Below are positions 1,768 through 12,445 of a stretch of DNA of 23,548 nt, piece by piece. The DNA lies in the IMG/VR virus record IMGVR_UViG_3300006919_000462, positions 1 through 23,548 of that record; one strand, 5' to 3'. Below the pieces are notes generated by a model. The model had not been told where the DNA came from and ran no database searches. It worked only from the letters and a program-made list of their open reading frames with translations. The position numbers and the translations under genes are program-made. How positions within the stretch are numbered: the first letter of the stretch is position 1; each line of letters opens with the position of its first letter. Source of the DNA: a virus.

Positions 1768-1796
1768 AACCGGGCCAGAAATGCGCCCGGTTTTTT
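1768..1796 (+). terminator. rho-independent terminator
   Basis: Perfect 8-bp stem AACCGGGC (1768-1775) / GCCCGGTT (1785-1792), nine-base loop, and a run of six T at 1791-1796. It would end transcription of the upstream early genes, or attenuate a late transcript that starts in the palindrome cluster just upstream. Its 3' sequence CGGTTTTTTATTGG recurs at 6027-6040 in the hairpin before the scaffold gene. Confidence 0.85.
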
Positions 1797-1961
1797 ATTG
1801 GGAATTCGAATGAACGCCGAAGAAGCCACGCTCTATTGTTCGTCGTGCTCGCCGCTGGAGTTGAATTTTCCAAATACGTGCCTGTAGTCTCAATTAAGGG
1901 CAACGCAGAGCTTTGGGCCATGCTGGCTATTGCTTGCGGCATTGCCAGTCATACAACTTAA
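1797..1961 (+). other. interval with only doubtful short ORFs
   Basis: Part of a 316-base stretch (1686-2001) without a convincing gene. Two overlapping frames are open. An ATG at 1810, 13 bases past the terminator T-run, opens a 25-codon frame ending at 1887. A different frame, open from before the terminator to 1961, encodes a hydrophobic run beginning near a TTG at 1836 (FVVLAAGVEF, then AMLAIACGIAS) that resembles a fragment of a small membrane protein. Neither has a good ribosome site. A frameshifted remnant is possible. Confidence 0.25.
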
Positions 1962-6011: not shown

Positions 6012-6035
6012 GCCGGCCCAAGTGGTCGGTTTTTT
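6012..6035 (+). terminator. terminator-like hairpin ahead of scaffold/coat genes
   Basis: Stem CCGGCC (6013-6018) / GGTCGG (6024-6029) with one G-T pair, extendable by another G-T pair (6012/6030), five-base loop, and six T at 6030-6035. It stands inside the late gene series, so it is either a partial attenuator, a site read through by an antitermination system, or an end/processing point separating packaging from head transcripts. The sequence CGGTTTTTTATTGG is shared with the terminator at 1768. Confidence 0.65.
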
Positions 6036-6048
6036 ATTGGAGTTTAGA

Positions 6049-6864
6049 ATGCAAGACGACGACAACACGGTAGCCAATCCCGAAGAATTGGAAACGGATG
6101 TCTCCGCAGGTGGTGAGCCGGCGCCGGAAAGTGAGGCCACGACGGAACCAGAGCCATCAGAGGCACCGGAACCGGGCGAGAGTGATGAGTCTACGGAAGC
6201 GGATGAACCGCTTGCCGCAAGTGACGACGAACCCAACAAGCCACGCAATCGGGTTCAGGAGCGTATTGATCAGCTGACCGCGCAAAAGCGGGATCTTGAG
6301 GCCAGACTGGCAGCAAGAGAGGCCGAATTTGCACGGCTTAACCAGCCACGGGAAGAAATCGATCCTTATGACTGGGATGCTCAAGAACGTGAACGCATTC
6401 GCAGTGCTGTCCAGGAAACCAGAGCGGGGGAGATTCTAGCCCAGGCTCAAGTGGAGCAGCAGCAGGCGTCAGCAGTTCAGCAGCAGGTGTTTAACGCGAA
6501 AATTGATGCAGCACGGGATTCAATCCCGGACATCGATAACGCTTTAAACCAGTTCTACAGCCTGCCAGTCGATGATTTCACAGCGGGTTTTATCGCTGAA
6601 AGTGATCGAGCCCCTCAGATTGCAGTTTACCTCGGTCGTAACCCGGCTGAAGCAATCCAGTTGAACAGTATGCATCCAGTGCACCGTGGCGTGGCACTCG
6701 CTCGGTTGGAGGCAAAGCTACAAGCTGCGCCGAAGGCCAAAAAAGTCTCAACCGCTCCGGCACCTGCCAAATCCCTTGGCGGCGGGGCAAGCCCTTCAGC
6801 TCGTGACCCAAATTCGATGTCTACAGAGGAATATCGGAAATGGCGCATGGGTTCAGGGGCGTAA
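6049..6864 (+). CDS. capsid scaffolding protein
   Basis: 271-residue scaffold from the ATG at 6049, chosen because GGAG (6039-6042) lies six bases upstream; an earlier in-frame GTG at 6022 falls inside the hairpin. The first about 60 residues are extremely acidic and disordered (Glu/Asp/Ser/Pro), followed by a coiled coil (about 64-105, VQERIDQLTAQKRDLEARL), a Gln/Ala-rich helix, and a basic, Pro/Ala-rich linker. It ends with a short helix 'STEEYRKWRMG', typical of phage scaffolds that bind coat protein through a small basic C-terminal helix. Position between portal and coat matches P22 gene 8 (303 residues). It would direct procapsid assembly and then leave. Confidence 0.88.
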   Translation: MQDDDNTVANPEELETDVSAGGEPAPESEATTEPEPSEAPEPGESDESTEADEPLAASDDEPNKPRNRVQERIDQLTAQKRDLEARLAAREAEFARLNQPREEIDPYDWDAQERERIRSAVQETRAGEILAQAQVEQQQASAVQQQVFNAKIDAARDSIPDIDNALNQFYSLPVDDFTAGFIAESDRAPQIAVYLGRNPAEAIQLNSMHPVHRGVALARLEAKLQAAPKAKKVSTAPAPAKSLGGGASPSARDPNSMSTEEYRKWRMGSGA

Positions 6865-8115: not shown

Positions 8116-8312
8116 TGGCAGAAGAAGAGAAAAAGTCCGCCCCGGTATGGATGTACCGGGGCGAAGAGGCAAAGTTGTTTGATCATCCCGACGATGTACC
8201 GTCTGGGTGGTCAGACAGCCCTGCAACGCCCGTCCCGGCGCCAAAAAAGCGCAAGGCGAAAGAAGAGCAGCCCGAACCGATGGAAGAAGAATTGAATGAC
8301 GACGGTTCGTGA
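8115..8312 (+). CDS. small charged head-region protein (65 aa)
   Basis: 65-residue, highly charged protein. The middle has 'WMYRGEEAKLFDHPDDVPSG' followed by a Trp and Ser-Pro, a pattern (aromatic-Tyr, acidic-Lys-x-Phe, then acidic-x-Pro-x-Gly-Trp) that recurs in short phage proteins near head genes. Both ends are Lys/Glu/Pro-rich and probably disordered. It starts on the coat stop codon (TAATG) and overlaps the next gene by 17 bases, so it is translated with the head-completion genes. Role unknown; an auxiliary head or connector protein is a guess from position. Confidence 0.7.
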   Translation: MAEEEKKSAPVWMYRGEEAKLFDHPDDVPSGWSDSPATPVPAPKKRKAKEEQPEPMEEELNDDGS

Positions 8313-8949
8313 TATCTGCACAAGATCGCTTCGCCGGAATAACATTCTAGCTTCCGGCGAAGCGATGTCTGCGGCTGATGGCGCCGATGCGCTTGGCGCC
8401 TTGAATGACATGATGCACGCCTGGAATTTTGAAGGCGTTGGAATTCCACACGAAGACTTTGCGTTGACAAGCACGTTTGAATTTTTTGTGCCGCCCGAGG
8501 TCCGAATACCGTTCGCCGATACGTTCGGTTCTCATGCCATGTTGGCAAATCTGGATTATCGGGGCGCATGGGACGCTTCAGCAAATTCGCCCGCTCTGGC
8601 GTCGTCGGCCGGAACGGAGGGCCACCTGTACAAGGTGTCGACGGCTGGCTCGACAGCGCTTGATGCAACGACATCGTGGGCTGTCGATGATTATCTGATT
8701 TTCAATCGCAAGCAGTGGGTCAAGGGGCGCTCGTCCCGACCGTTTGAAGGTGCTGTTATCGCGATGCTTGCCGTTCGCATGTCATCCCAATACGGGGATG
8801 ACGTTACTCCAGAATTAATGAAGGCGGCAGACGACGGATGGAACCGGATATTGCAGCCTTGGCTAGACCCGGACGCAGCAAAATACGATTTTGGATTAAC
8901 GAGAACCTCCGTTCGCCTATGGCGCGAAAGCGGTATCAATGGTTCTTAA
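8296..8949 (+). CDS. gp4-like tail accessory factor with fibre-type insert
   Basis: 217-residue head-completion protein in the position of P22 gene 4, whose product binds the portal underside and is needed to retain DNA. The N-terminal helices (residues 3-48, ending in 'LNDMMHAWNFEGVGI') and the C-terminal helices (150-200, 'EGAVIAMLAVRMSSQYGDDV') follow the gp4 pattern. Between them, at about 86-144, lies a foreign-looking module: 'YRGAWDASANSPAL', 'GHLYKVSTAGSTALD', 'WAVDDYLIFNRKQWVK'. This is the short beta module with G-T/A-W-x-A-S-x-N-x-P and V-S-x-A-G-x-x-x-L-D that is common in phage fibre proteins. Without it about 158 residues remain, close to P22 gp4 (166). The 3' end contains one copy of a 28-base repeat. 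Confidence 0.82.
   Translation: MTTVRDICTRSLRRNNILASGEAMSAADGADALGALNDMMHAWNFEGVGIPHEDFALTSTFEFFVPPEVRIPFADTFGSHAMLANLDYRGAWDASANSPALASSAGTEGHLYKVSTAGSTALDATTSWAVDDYLIFNRKQWVKGRSSRPFEGAVIAMLAVRMSSQYGDDVTPELMKAADDGWNRILQPWLDPDAAKYDFGLTRTSVRLWRESGINGS
8899..8926 (+). repeat. 28-base exact direct repeat, copy 1
   Basis: Begins ACGAGAACCTCC and ends CTATGGCGCG; identical over 28 bases to 11158-11185. Here it lies near the 3' end of the gp4-like gene and is read in frame 1 (Thr-Arg-Thr-Ser-Val-Arg-Leu-Trp-Arg). It contains CGCC-tat-GGCG, a 4-bp inverted repeat. Confidence 0.9.
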
Positions 8950-10345
8950 AACGATCTCGCCCGGCACAACTTCAAATCCAGCTCGGCACGGCCCGGACGG
9001 TGCTGCAAGACTGATCAATTGTTACGTTGAGGATGCGGCTGACGAAGGTAAGACCCGCTGGCCGCTCTATGCAGCTGATGGGCTGACGGATTTCGCAACG
9101 CTCGTAAATGGTGGCGCTACGCGCGCGATGATCGTTGTGAAGCCGGATCTCTATGTGGTGTCTGGTCGATTGGTGTTTCGCCTGGACGCGGCTGGGACGG
9201 CTACGGTGATCGGTGCCATCCCGACAGACGGACCGGTGTATATGGCACGGAATGGGCGCCCTGGTGGTGATCAGGTTCTCGTTGCCTCAGATGGTTTCTA
9301 TGGAGTGATTGAAGCGGGGCAGTTTGCTCAGTTCCAAAGTCCTAATTTTTACGGACCTCGGTCGGTTGCTGTTGTCGATGGTTACGGCATAGCAGCGGGC
9401 GGCAGTGGACGCTGGCAAACATCAGGTCAGTATAACGCGCGCAGCTGGGATGCCCTGGAATTCGCGAGCGCGGAAAGCAACCCGGACGATATCGAGGTTG
9501 CATTCACGCATGAGCGCGAAGTGATGTTGTTCGGTACTGACTCGCTGGAGTTTTGGCAAAACACTGGTGGCGCCGACTTTGTGTTTTCCCGAGTGACCAC
9601 CAAGCAAATTGGGTGCGCGTCTGGTAGCAGCGTTGCCCTGGTGGGTGAAAGCATTGCCTGGGTCGACGATGAAAGCCAGGTCAGGCTTCGGAATGGATAC
9701 GGCGGGCAGATCATCAGTAACGGTGCTGTGTCTCGAGCGATATCAGGAACAACAGACAAGACGACCATCAAGGGCTTCAGCTGGGCGCAGGGCAATCACG
9801 CATTCTATGCGATCCGCTGCCCATCTTGGTGTTGGGTATTCGACCTCTACACGCAACAATGGCACGAACGGCAGAGCCACAATTCACCAACTTGGAACAT
9901 CTCTGATGTCGTCAAGTTCGGAGACAAATGGATTGCCGGTGATGCTGCAACGGGCAAGCTCTACGAAATGAGCAGCACGGCTTTTGATGATGCAGGATCG
10001 CCGCTTATCATGACCGTGCAACCGCCAATGGTTCACAGCTACCCGAACCCGGTCAAGGTCAATGCGGTGTATCTGGATGCAATATCAGGCATTGGGGCCA
10101 ATTCCAGTGATGTCGATGATTCAGATCCGAAACTCATGGTGCAGTGGTCATTCGACGGCGGGCTGAACTGGTCAGGCGAGCGCATGGTTTCCCTTGGTCA
10201 GCTCGGTGACAGGCTGCGACGGATCAAGATGACGCGTTTCGGGAAGTCACGGGAAGACGGGTTCACGTTCAAGTTTTCCGTGTCAGCAAATGTGCTCAAG
10301 GGCATCACCGGCCTTTCGGTCGATGCCACGAAATTGAAGGCTTGA
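8939..10345 (+). CDS. gp10-like packaged-DNA stabilization protein
   Basis: 468 residues, almost the length of P22 gp10 (472), the tail hub that joins gp4 to the needle and tailspikes and keeps DNA in the head. The N-terminus has the family look: 'ARLINCYVED' at about 24-33, then 'PLYAADGLTDFATL', followed by repeated beta-propeller-like strands (GxxVxxxD, 'GPVYMARNGRPGGDQVLVAS', 'WVFDLYTQQWHER') and a C-terminal 'VQWSFDGGLNWSG' region. It overlaps the preceding gene by 11 bases and is followed directly (TGATG) by a tiny gene. The order gp4, gp10 is that of P22. I consider the family assignment secure. Confidence 0.88.
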   Translation: MVLKTISPGTTSNPARHGPDGAARLINCYVEDAADEGKTRWPLYAADGLTDFATLVNGGATRAMIVVKPDLYVVSGRLVFRLDAAGTATVIGAIPTDGPVYMARNGRPGGDQVLVASDGFYGVIEAGQFAQFQSPNFYGPRSVAVVDGYGIAAGGSGRWQTSGQYNARSWDALEFASAESNPDDIEVAFTHEREVMLFGTDSLEFWQNTGGADFVFSRVTTKQIGCASGSSVALVGESIAWVDDESQVRLRNGYGGQIISNGAVSRAISGTTDKTTIKGFSWAQGNHAFYAIRCPSWCWVFDLYTQQWHERQSHNSPTWNISDVVKFGDKWIAGDAATGKLYEMSSTAFDDAGSPLIMTVQPPMVHSYPNPVKVNAVYLDAISGIGANSSDVDDSDPKLMVQWSFDGGLNWSGERMVSLGQLGDRLRRIKMTRFGKSREDGFTFKFSVSANVLKGITGLSVDATKLKA

Positions 10346-10479
10346 TGATGTCTGAGACACTCCCGCCACTGCCGGCGCCCGATAACATGCCGCCGCATCT
10401 GTATGAGTATTTCACAAAACTGAGATCATATATCGCCACGCTTGATGCGCGGATTAAAACGTTAGAGGACGCAAGCTGA
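10345..10479 (+). CDS. 44-aa protein in the tail-needle gene position
   Basis: A short gene coupled at both ends by TGATG overlaps: it starts on the stop of the gp10-like gene (10343-10347) and its own TGA overlaps the next start (10477-10481). The 44-residue product has a Pro-rich N-terminus (ETLPPLPAPDNMPPHLYEYF) and an amphipathic heptad-type helix (TKLRSYIATLDARIKTLED). In P22 this slot between gp10 and the ejection genes is held by the trimeric tail needle gp26 (233 residues), which also begins with a short plug and continues as a coiled coil. A minimal needle or plug is a reasonable inference, not shown. Two adjacent ATG codons (10345 and 10348) are possible starts. Confidence 0.7.
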   Translation: MMSETLPPLPAPDNMPPHLYEYFTKLRSYIATLDARIKTLEDAS

Positions 10480-11192
10480 TGGGCTTTTTTGACTCCCTCA
10501 TGGGCTCTTCCCAACGTCGCGACATGCGGGACGGAGCGGCTGCATACGATGCCAGTCTTGGCCGTGCCAAAGGGCATGTCACCAACTACGGCAATCAGGC
10601 AAAGAACAATTATCTGACACGCCTGCAACCGTACCAGGATCGCAGCGACAACGCTTACGGCACGTACAGCAATGCGCTCGGTCTCAACGGCAATGAAGAG
10701 CAGCAAGGCTACTGGGACGGATACCAGAATGATCCTCAGCGCGGCTATGACGAGGATCGGGCTGTGAGTGCAGTCAATCGAGGTATGAGCGCGCGCGGCA
10801 TGTCACAGAGCGGGCTCAACGCATTGGCTGGCAACCGTGCTGCAATGGATGTCGGTCGGTCATATACAACCGAACGCCTCAACAGGCTGCAGGGCTTGTC
10901 AGGCGAAGGCTCGCAGATCGCTAGTCAACTTGCATCAGGTTTGAGCAACATAGACCTGGGAATGGGCAATGCGCTAGCCGGCTACGAAACGCAGCAAGGC
11001 CAGAACCAGCAGGCACTGCATCAAGGTTTGGCGGGAACGCGTAACATGGGATTCAATAACGCACTGGCTCTTGGTGGAACTTTGATGGGTGGGTTTGCGC
11101 CAACGGCAAGTGGGCAGTCTGCATTTGGCAATATGGCTGGTGGAATGAATAGGCTTTACGAGAACCTCCGTTCGCCTATGGCGCGGGGTTAA
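10479..11192 (+). CDS. ejection (internal virion) protein, gp7/gp14-type
   Basis: 237-residue Gly/Ala/Asn/Gln-rich protein. It begins MGFFDSLMGSS, like many ejection proteins with a short amphipathic start, then has helical segments with many Gln/Asn (about 40-90), 'RGMSARGMSQSGLNALAGNR' and a Gly-rich, hydrophobic C-terminus (about 195-225, NALALGGTLMGGFAPTASG). This low-complexity make-up and its place right after the tail-hub genes fit the P22 gp14/gp7 class, packaged in the head and released before DNA to form part of an envelope channel. Exact equivalence to one P22 protein cannot be settled. The last codons contain copy 2 of the 28-base repeat. Confidence 0.7.
   Translation: MGFFDSLMGSSQRRDMRDGAAAYDASLGRAKGHVTNYGNQAKNNYLTRLQPYQDRSDNAYGTYSNALGLNGNEEQQGYWDGYQNDPQRGYDEDRAVSAVNRGMSARGMSQSGLNALAGNRAAMDVGRSYTTERLNRLQGLSGEGSQIASQLASGLSNIDLGMGNALAGYETQQGQNQQALHQGLAGTRNMGFNNALALGGTLMGGFAPTASGQSAFGNMAGGMNRLYENLRSPMARG
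11158..11185 (+). repeat. 28-base exact direct repeat, copy 2
   Basis: Identical to 8899-8926, but read one base out of register (Tyr-Glu-Asn-Leu-Arg-Ser-Pro-Met-Ala-Arg), so no protein sequence is shared. It ends seven bases before the end of the first ejection gene and ten bases before the start of the next. Confidence 0.9.
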
Positions 11193-11194
11193 CG

Positions 11195-12445
11195 ATGGCA
11201 CCTAATTACATGCTTCCACAAAACGCTCTGCGTTTGGATTTCTCACCAGTTCAACGAGGAATACAGCAGTACGCAAACGGTATGAACCAAGAGCACCGGG
11301 CCGTTACTAACGCACTTAACCGTCAAAGCGATATGGACTGGAGACAAAGCCAAGCCGAGCGAGCGCAAGGCAATGCGGATCGATCTTTTGAAGCGAACCA
11401 GACTCACCGAGCGTCACAGCTTGGACTTCAGAACCGTCAATTTAACGCCTTGAGTGGCTATAGAGACCGCACGTTTGAGGCTGGTCAGGCCAATGCAGAC
11501 CGCGCCTTCGATCTTCGCCAAAAAACATTCGGCATGGATACGGAGACGCACGAGGAAAACCTGAAGCAGAACGTCATCAAGCGAGGTGGCGGGGTTGCTC
11601 AGCTCATCGATCGTGAGCAAGACCCGACCAAGAAAGCTGAGATGTGGCGCCAGTTCGTGAATTCAAACCCGCTCGTTTTAAGCAGTCTGCCGGCGCAATA
11701 CCACAATGATCCTGTTGCCGGCTCTCAATACATCATGGCCCAAGCACGCGGCTATCAAGACCCGGTATCTCAACGTCTAAAATCGTCCACGATCCTAAAG
11801 AATGAGGCGGAGGCTACCGGCTTCGGCAAACCACCGACTGGATATCGATTCAATCAAGATGGAACCCTAACTGCTATTCCTGGAGGACCAGCAACCAAGA
11901 TGGGAAGTGACGTGGCCGGGAAGGTTGCTTTGATGGCGAATGGTCTTTTGGAGCTTCCGAGAGCTCAAAAAATATTTGACGATATTGGTTTAGGTGGCAG
12001 GGCTAACATGGTCTTGAACAGGGGGCATGCTGGTGAAGCGAGGCGTATCGTACAGACGCTTGTTGAGGCACAGTTAAGAGCATTGACCGGGGCGGCAGCT
12101 ACACCGCAAGAAACAGATCGATTGATGAACTTCTATGGTCCTGTTTCATCGGATACGGTCGAGACCATGAAGGCCAAGCTTGCCCGATTAGATCGAACGG
12201 TCAGGAACAGCATTAAGTTGATGCAAACTGGCCGCGTTACTTATGATAATGGTAATCGCCTTGATGCGCTAATACCCGCCGCCGACCTTTCTCAACAACC
12301 AGGGGCCACCACAGCAGGGTCAGGCCAGGGCGGCACCGGAAATCTTCCGGTCATGACGCCACAGCAAGCGCAGAGCTTACCGCCTGGCACGCAATTCACA
12401 ACAACAGACGGCCGAATAATGCGCGTCCCTGGAGGGACTCAATAA
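11195..12445 (+). CDS. ejection protein, second (416 aa)
   Basis: 416-residue predicted DNA-ejection protein, comparable in size and place to P22 gp20 (471). The N-terminus has 'MLPQNALRLDF' (residues 6-16), a motif repeated in the fourth ejection protein. Residues 35-115 are a Gln/Asn/Arg-rich helical array with imperfect repeats (DRSFEANQ, DRTFEAGQANADRAFDLRQ). The centre (about 235-345) is a helical domain (SDVAGKVALMANGLLELPRA). The C-terminus, 'QAQSLPPGTQFTTTDGRIM', is a short strand motif common in phage ejection and internal proteins. The start lies two bases after the preceding stop; the next gene starts directly after its stop. Function inferred from position and composition. Confidence 0.68.
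   Translation: MAPNYMLPQNALRLDFSPVQRGIQQYANGMNQEHRAVTNALNRQSDMDWRQSQAERAQGNADRSFEANQTHRASQLGLQNRQFNALSGYRDRTFEAGQANADRAFDLRQKTFGMDTETHEENLKQNVIKRGGGVAQLIDREQDPTKKAEMWRQFVNSNPLVLSSLPAQYHNDPVAGSQYIMAQARGYQDPVSQRLKSSTILKNEAEATGFGKPPTGYRFNQDGTLTAIPGGPATKMGSDVAGKVALMANGLLELPRAQKIFDDIGLGGRANMVLNRGHAGEARRIVQTLVEAQLRALTGAAATPQETDRLMNFYGPVSSDTVETMKAKLARLDRTVRNSIKLMQTGRVTYDNGNRLDALIPAADLSQQPGATTAGSGQGGTGNLPVMTPQQAQSLPPGTQFTTTDGRIMRVPGGTQ

Follow-up and report, generated by a model that had tools for sequence, protein, structure and literature searches.

The question raised by this locus is how two genes of one phage have come to carry, close to their ends, the same 28 bases read in two different frames. 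The window analysed here, the whole 23,548-nucleotide stretch of IMG/VR virus record IMGVR_UViG_3300006919_000462, contains a P22-like podoviral structural block with genes for portal (PF16510), coat (PF11651), a gp4-like adaptor and a gp10-like head closure protein, together with a 43-aa ORF and ejection genes 1 and 2 (Table 1). Exact matching over the whole window bore out the original prediction of two identical copies in different frames: the 28-mer ACGAGAACCTCCGTTCGCCTATGGCGCG has two perfect copies on the same strand, and a third is absent from the window even when up to 3 mismatches are allowed. Copy 1 is read in the gp4-like gene as ACG AGA ACC TCC GTT CGC CTA TGG CGC and copy 2 in the first ejection gene as (T)AC GAG AAC CTC CGT TCG CCT ATG GCG CG(G), a register shifted by one base, so that protein homology does not explain the repeat. 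Chance, dismissed from the outset, can indeed be set aside, with about 4e-9 direct 28-mer pairs expected given the size and composition of the window and none found in 100 shuffles.

Both copies lie near gene 3' ends, as had been noticed, copy 1 ending 23 nt and copy 2 ending 7 nt before the end of its gene. To the left of the repeat there is a weak 6-nt similarity (GGATTA vs GGCTTT, 4/6), and to the right the similarity breaks off sharply, with 1 nt (G) in common. Recombination between the copies would delete 2,259 bp, in line with the size first estimated, and with them gp10, the 43-aa ORF and the ejection gene. A direct repeat of 28 bp is close to the minimum length for RecA-type recombination, and the deletion product would not be expected to be viable, since it would lack gp10 and ejection gene 1. 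Our preferred answer to the question, to which we give a probability of about 0.8, is a single recent and accidental short templated insertion, from the 3' end of the gp4-like gene into the tolerant 3' end of the ejection gene.

Table 1. Positions of the two repeat copies and of the genes around them in the window.
Feature	Position	Strand	Description and basis
Copy 1 of the 28-mer	8899..8926	+	Native gp4-like 3' end and patch source; exact match, conserved C-terminal motif, present in L001
Copy 2 of the 28-mer	11158..11185	+	Patch of 27 or 28 bp, inserted at the ejection gene 1 3' end; exact match, missing at the L089-L093 site
gp4-like head-tail adaptor gene, 217 aa, contains copy 1	8296..8949	+	phrog_637 head-tail adaptor Ad3 at residues 1-53; conserved C-terminus
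gp10-like head closure gene, between the copies	8939..10345	+	phrog_578 head closure Hc3, E 1.4e-86
Small ORF of 43 aa, following gp10 and preceding ejection gene 1	10348..10479	+	Read from the sequence; similar ORF in L022
First DNA-ejection gene, 237 aa, contains copy 2	10479..11192	+	phrog_598 DNA ejection, E 1.3e-5; 57% identity to L089-L091
Second ejection-region gene	11195..12445	+	Start codon 10 nt past copy 2; N-terminus matches the gene after ejection gene 1 in L089-L093

Copy 1 and the end of the gp4-like gene

Searching phage and plasmid records with the gp4-like and ejection proteins gave almost no matches, and relatives were therefore collected via gp10. The gp4-like proteins that precede gp10 in these relatives have a common C-terminal motif (tails DYGLTRMPSQIWPY, DAGLTRMPSQIWPY, DPGLTRLPSRRWPY, DTALTRTSMRVSR and DNALTRTTTRRYED; window tail DFGLTRTSVRLWRE). 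Copy 1 encodes this motif, D..LTR..S/R..W/Y, which is conserved in the P22 gp4-like adaptor family and to which its residues TRTSVRLWR fit. Against a profile of the gp4 tail, built from 17 relatives with the window excluded, the window tail scored 53.8 bits when it included the residues encoded by the repeat and 41.5 bits when it was cut before them; of 1000 random window segments swapped in for the copy 1 residues, only 1 reached 53.8 bits. Independent confirmation of copy 1 comes from L001, a contig of IMG sample 3300006916 with 1 difference to the window in 10,757 bp. The profile score thus argues for copy 1 as the original end of the gp4-like gene, under functional constraint, and as the older of the two copies, which the donor of a templated insertion should be. 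Codon usage runs mildly against the direction from copy 1 to copy 2, being slightly better in the frame of copy 2 (mean log relative usage -0.32 vs -0.47 in the copy 1 frame).

The gp4-like protein has an extra internal domain (residues 82-147, window 8539-8736), with the N-terminal adaptor portion on one side of it and the C-terminal motif on the other. This domain matches the phage tail-protein families phrog_13892, phrog_29238 and phrog_31460 and also a tail gene of MW202753. The L001 contig and the window begin at exactly the same base, which suggests a genome terminus or a common break in the assembly graph.

Copy 2 and the corresponding site in relatives

Five contigs of two sub-lineages, L089-L091 (57% identity) and L092-L093 (48%), carry the orthologues nearest to ejection gene 1. 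The products of these genes end in SGQSPFGNMLTGLKHLGVI and KTSPFGNMLTGMNFLG, respectively, and that of the window in SGQSAFGNMAGGMNRLYENLRSPMARG, each directly before the stop codon. When the tail ends are aligned, FGNMLTGLKHLGVI and FGNMLTGMNFLG stand against FGNMAGGMNRL in the window, which continues with the patch residues YENLRSPMAR and a final G; in all five contigs the gene stops directly past the leucine where the patch of the window begins. The interval from this last common Leu codon to the ATG of the next gene is 14 nt in L089-L091, 13 nt in L092-L093 and 41 nt in the window, an excess of 27-28 nt that equals the size of the repeat. Deleting 27 nt from the window would give a protein ending in GMNRLWG or GMNRL, resembling the relatives, and the junction of the empty allele is predicted to be GGCTTT joined directly to GGGTTAACGATGG. 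The five contigs thus have an empty site, and the insertion postdates the split from those relatives; from the 28/28 identity of the copies we infer that it is recent. On these alignments copy 2 is the insert and copy 1 its source. Copy 2 adds about nine residues to the C-terminus of the ejection protein, in a frame that stays open and is followed by a stop codon. A point against this reading is that the C-termini of ejection gene products differ in length across the wider family, L032 and L024 also being longer-tailed.

The next gene adjoins in all cases and starts with M-V-NYLLPQ in L089-L093 and with MAPNYMLPQ in the window. This match of the ejection-2 N-terminus to the same follower gene indicates that the junction across copy 2 is a natural adjacency. 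Ejection gene 2 itself is a mosaic, with residues 1-82 matching L089-L093 and residues 101-206 matching L023 and L102.

The window contig probably comes from a short-read metagenome, and copy 2 is known from one assembly, L001 stopping at window position 10757, before copy 2. A wrong join at the 28-bp word could on these grounds have produced copy 2, but it would have had to recreate the order of ejection genes 1 and 2 seen in the relatives and to leave an open frame with a proper stop, and assemblers do not normally add an internal word between natural neighbours. We therefore regard such an artefact as very unlikely, and copy 2 is probably not a misassembly. Relatives in which one copy is absent, named at the outset as grounds for doubting the repeat, do exist for copy 2 in L089-L093, where they point to an insertion and not to an artefact.

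Signals, boundaries and the proposed mode of insertion

A DNA-level signal was among the meanings first proposed for the repeat, and a search of the rest of the phage and its relatives for the 28-mer was suggested. This search, covering the window, IMG/VR, phage records and the gene ends of ten relatives, found the word outside the window in L001 only (copy 1), and it gave no support to a signal. Neither the 22-mer nor the 19-mer core occurred in any IMG/VR contig besides the near-identical L001, and the word was not found in phage records at distant sensitivity. In the ten relatives that have both genes, the corresponding gene ends had at best a run of 6-8 nt in common, which is background, and no similar pair of gene ends was found among the relatives. 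The CGCC-tat-GGCG stem pointed out in both copies does form a hairpin but a weak one (z = -0.19), and folding of the element and of its two contexts was no better than that of shuffled sequences (z -0.19, 1.16 and -0.21). Promoter- and terminator-like matches were at chance level in our scans, without excess over shuffles.

One suggestive point is the distance of 10-13 nt that separates the end of either copy from the start codon that follows, a closeness in both source and target that an accident would not require. In the target such a position is to be expected, because gene ends tolerate insertions, but this reason does not extend to the source. A DNA or RNA signal under selection ahead of the gp10 and ejection-2 starts, acting in translation coupling, processing or protein binding, would account for this spacing and for the stem in both copies, but the fold energy and the promoter and terminator scans are those of shuffled sequences, and the word is absent from the other gene junctions of the window, from phage records and from IMG/VR beyond L001, with no pair in relatives. 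We consider such a signal highly improbable, and it is just as improbable that the patch is a selected dual-site element, useful either as a word before the next start codon or through its new 9-residue tail.

An imperfect repeat of 43 nt (74%), CGGTTTTTTATTGG...GAATG, lies at window positions 1788-1830 and 6027-6069, ahead of two ATG codons that may be starts, one of them belonging to the scaffold-like gene; it is possibly a shared leader or expression signal. Exact dispersed repeats of at least 22 bp are rare in relatives, with one case, that of L075, in 108 loci that are each 7 kb or longer and together make up 1.2 Mb. In this Rhodomicrobium prophage a 41-bp exact repeat (177-217 and 992-1032) is formed by a fragment of the portal gene N-terminus that precedes the intact N-terminus by about 0.8 kb.

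A module-exchange or boundary (linker) sequence, marking points at which modules are swapped by homologous recombination, was another of the meanings first considered. In its favour, the closest gp10 relatives (L089-L094, L104 and L022) have other genes, some of them glycine-rich, just before gp10, and no gp4-like gene. With such unrelated genes upstream, the gp4/gp10 boundary is a mosaic breakpoint; both copies lie at gene boundaries, and genes 67 and 68 of mycobacteriophage Island3 are comparable (PMC3029335). The word should then recur at the boundaries of partners, but it was found in no relative, so that no partner is known to share it, nor was it found anywhere in IMG/VR besides L001 or in phage records. 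In relatives without the word, moreover, the block between the copies keeps its synteny with ejection-2, and gp10, the small ORF, ejection-1 and ejection-2 are contiguous, so that for copy 2 the proposal is not supported, and overall we find it scarcely credible.

The proposal that stood up is that of the scar of a recent duplication, which is supported by the empty site of the relatives and by the gp4 profile and can now be given a direction, from the gp4-like 3' end to the ejection-gene 3' end. As expected of a templated insertion, the patch is identical to a donor in the same genome (28/28, at two sites only), and the target is empty in five contigs, the excess over them being the size of the patch (13-14 vs 41 nt). 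Against this reading stands the weak microhomology at the junctions (4/6 left of the patch, 1 nt right of it). We propose that 27-28 nt of the gp4-like end were copied over a distance of 2.26 kb into the last codons of the downstream ejection gene 1, the simplest course being a single step while the DNA was replicated. The nascent strand may have switched template briefly and then returned, or a short single-stranded fragment may have annealed at the fork and been joined in. The open frame and the stop would have been kept by luck, giving a tail of about nine residues, YENLRSPMAR, in a frame other than that of the source, and the change would have been neutral.

Priming of a template switch by TTAACGA, a word shared at 8896 and 11189, was rejected: relative to copy 2 this word is on the wrong side, and GGGGTTAACGA would then remain left of the patch. 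The two copies, being identical, do not show the differences at template adenines that mark the template and variable repeats of a diversity-generating retroelement.

Tandem duplication and deletion are common in phage. A tandem duplication running from copy 1 to the ejection gene 1 tail, with a later deletion that spared only the 28-nt patch of the second copy, would yield the same product from two ordinary illegitimate junctions, but it requires two events and an intermediate with about 2.3 kb of extra DNA, of which the patch is the sole remnant seen; we hold this route to be unlikely. Under the templated insertion that we prefer, the event is real, well resolved and of an ordinary mutational kind, and no new system is indicated. 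Its value is that of a clean natural phage case of a short templated insertion in which donor, target, direction and empty site are all identifiable, and of an example of a protein tail built from the DNA of another gene in a different frame.

Comparison with known systems

A literature search for phage cases of short-patch recombination gave no direct match. Harms et al. (2016, PNAS) reportedly described short-patch substitutions and insertions of intragenomic DNA by double illegitimate recombination in naturally competent Acinetobacter. That study (doi 10.1073/pnas.1615819114) is cited in PMC8116780. In common with the Acinetobacter patches, a short segment of the same genome turns up here in another place as a single clustered change, and its junctions have little homology; unlike them, the change is found in a phage, it is a pure insertion, and its mechanism is only inferred. 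The templated insertions of yeast, which arise at breaks or forks by microhomology-mediated template switching, are very short, those of the local class being mostly about 5-34 bp and inverted (PMC11724301). They too are copied from another place and 27-28 bp fits their size, whereas they depend on eukaryotic enzymes and the 5-34 bp class is inverted and local, the patch of the window being direct and 2.26 kb away (PMC11724301).

The nearest published phage case that we found is that of Island3 genes 67 and 68, which have about 60 bp in common at their 3' ends (PMC3029335). Their C-terminal 18 residues are related, so that the frame is shared, and a sister phage has a recombinant single copy (PMC3029335). 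The resemblance lies in a short sequence of recent origin that two phage genes lying close together share at their 3' ends; the difference is that in the window the two frames are not the same and the relatives have an empty insertion site.
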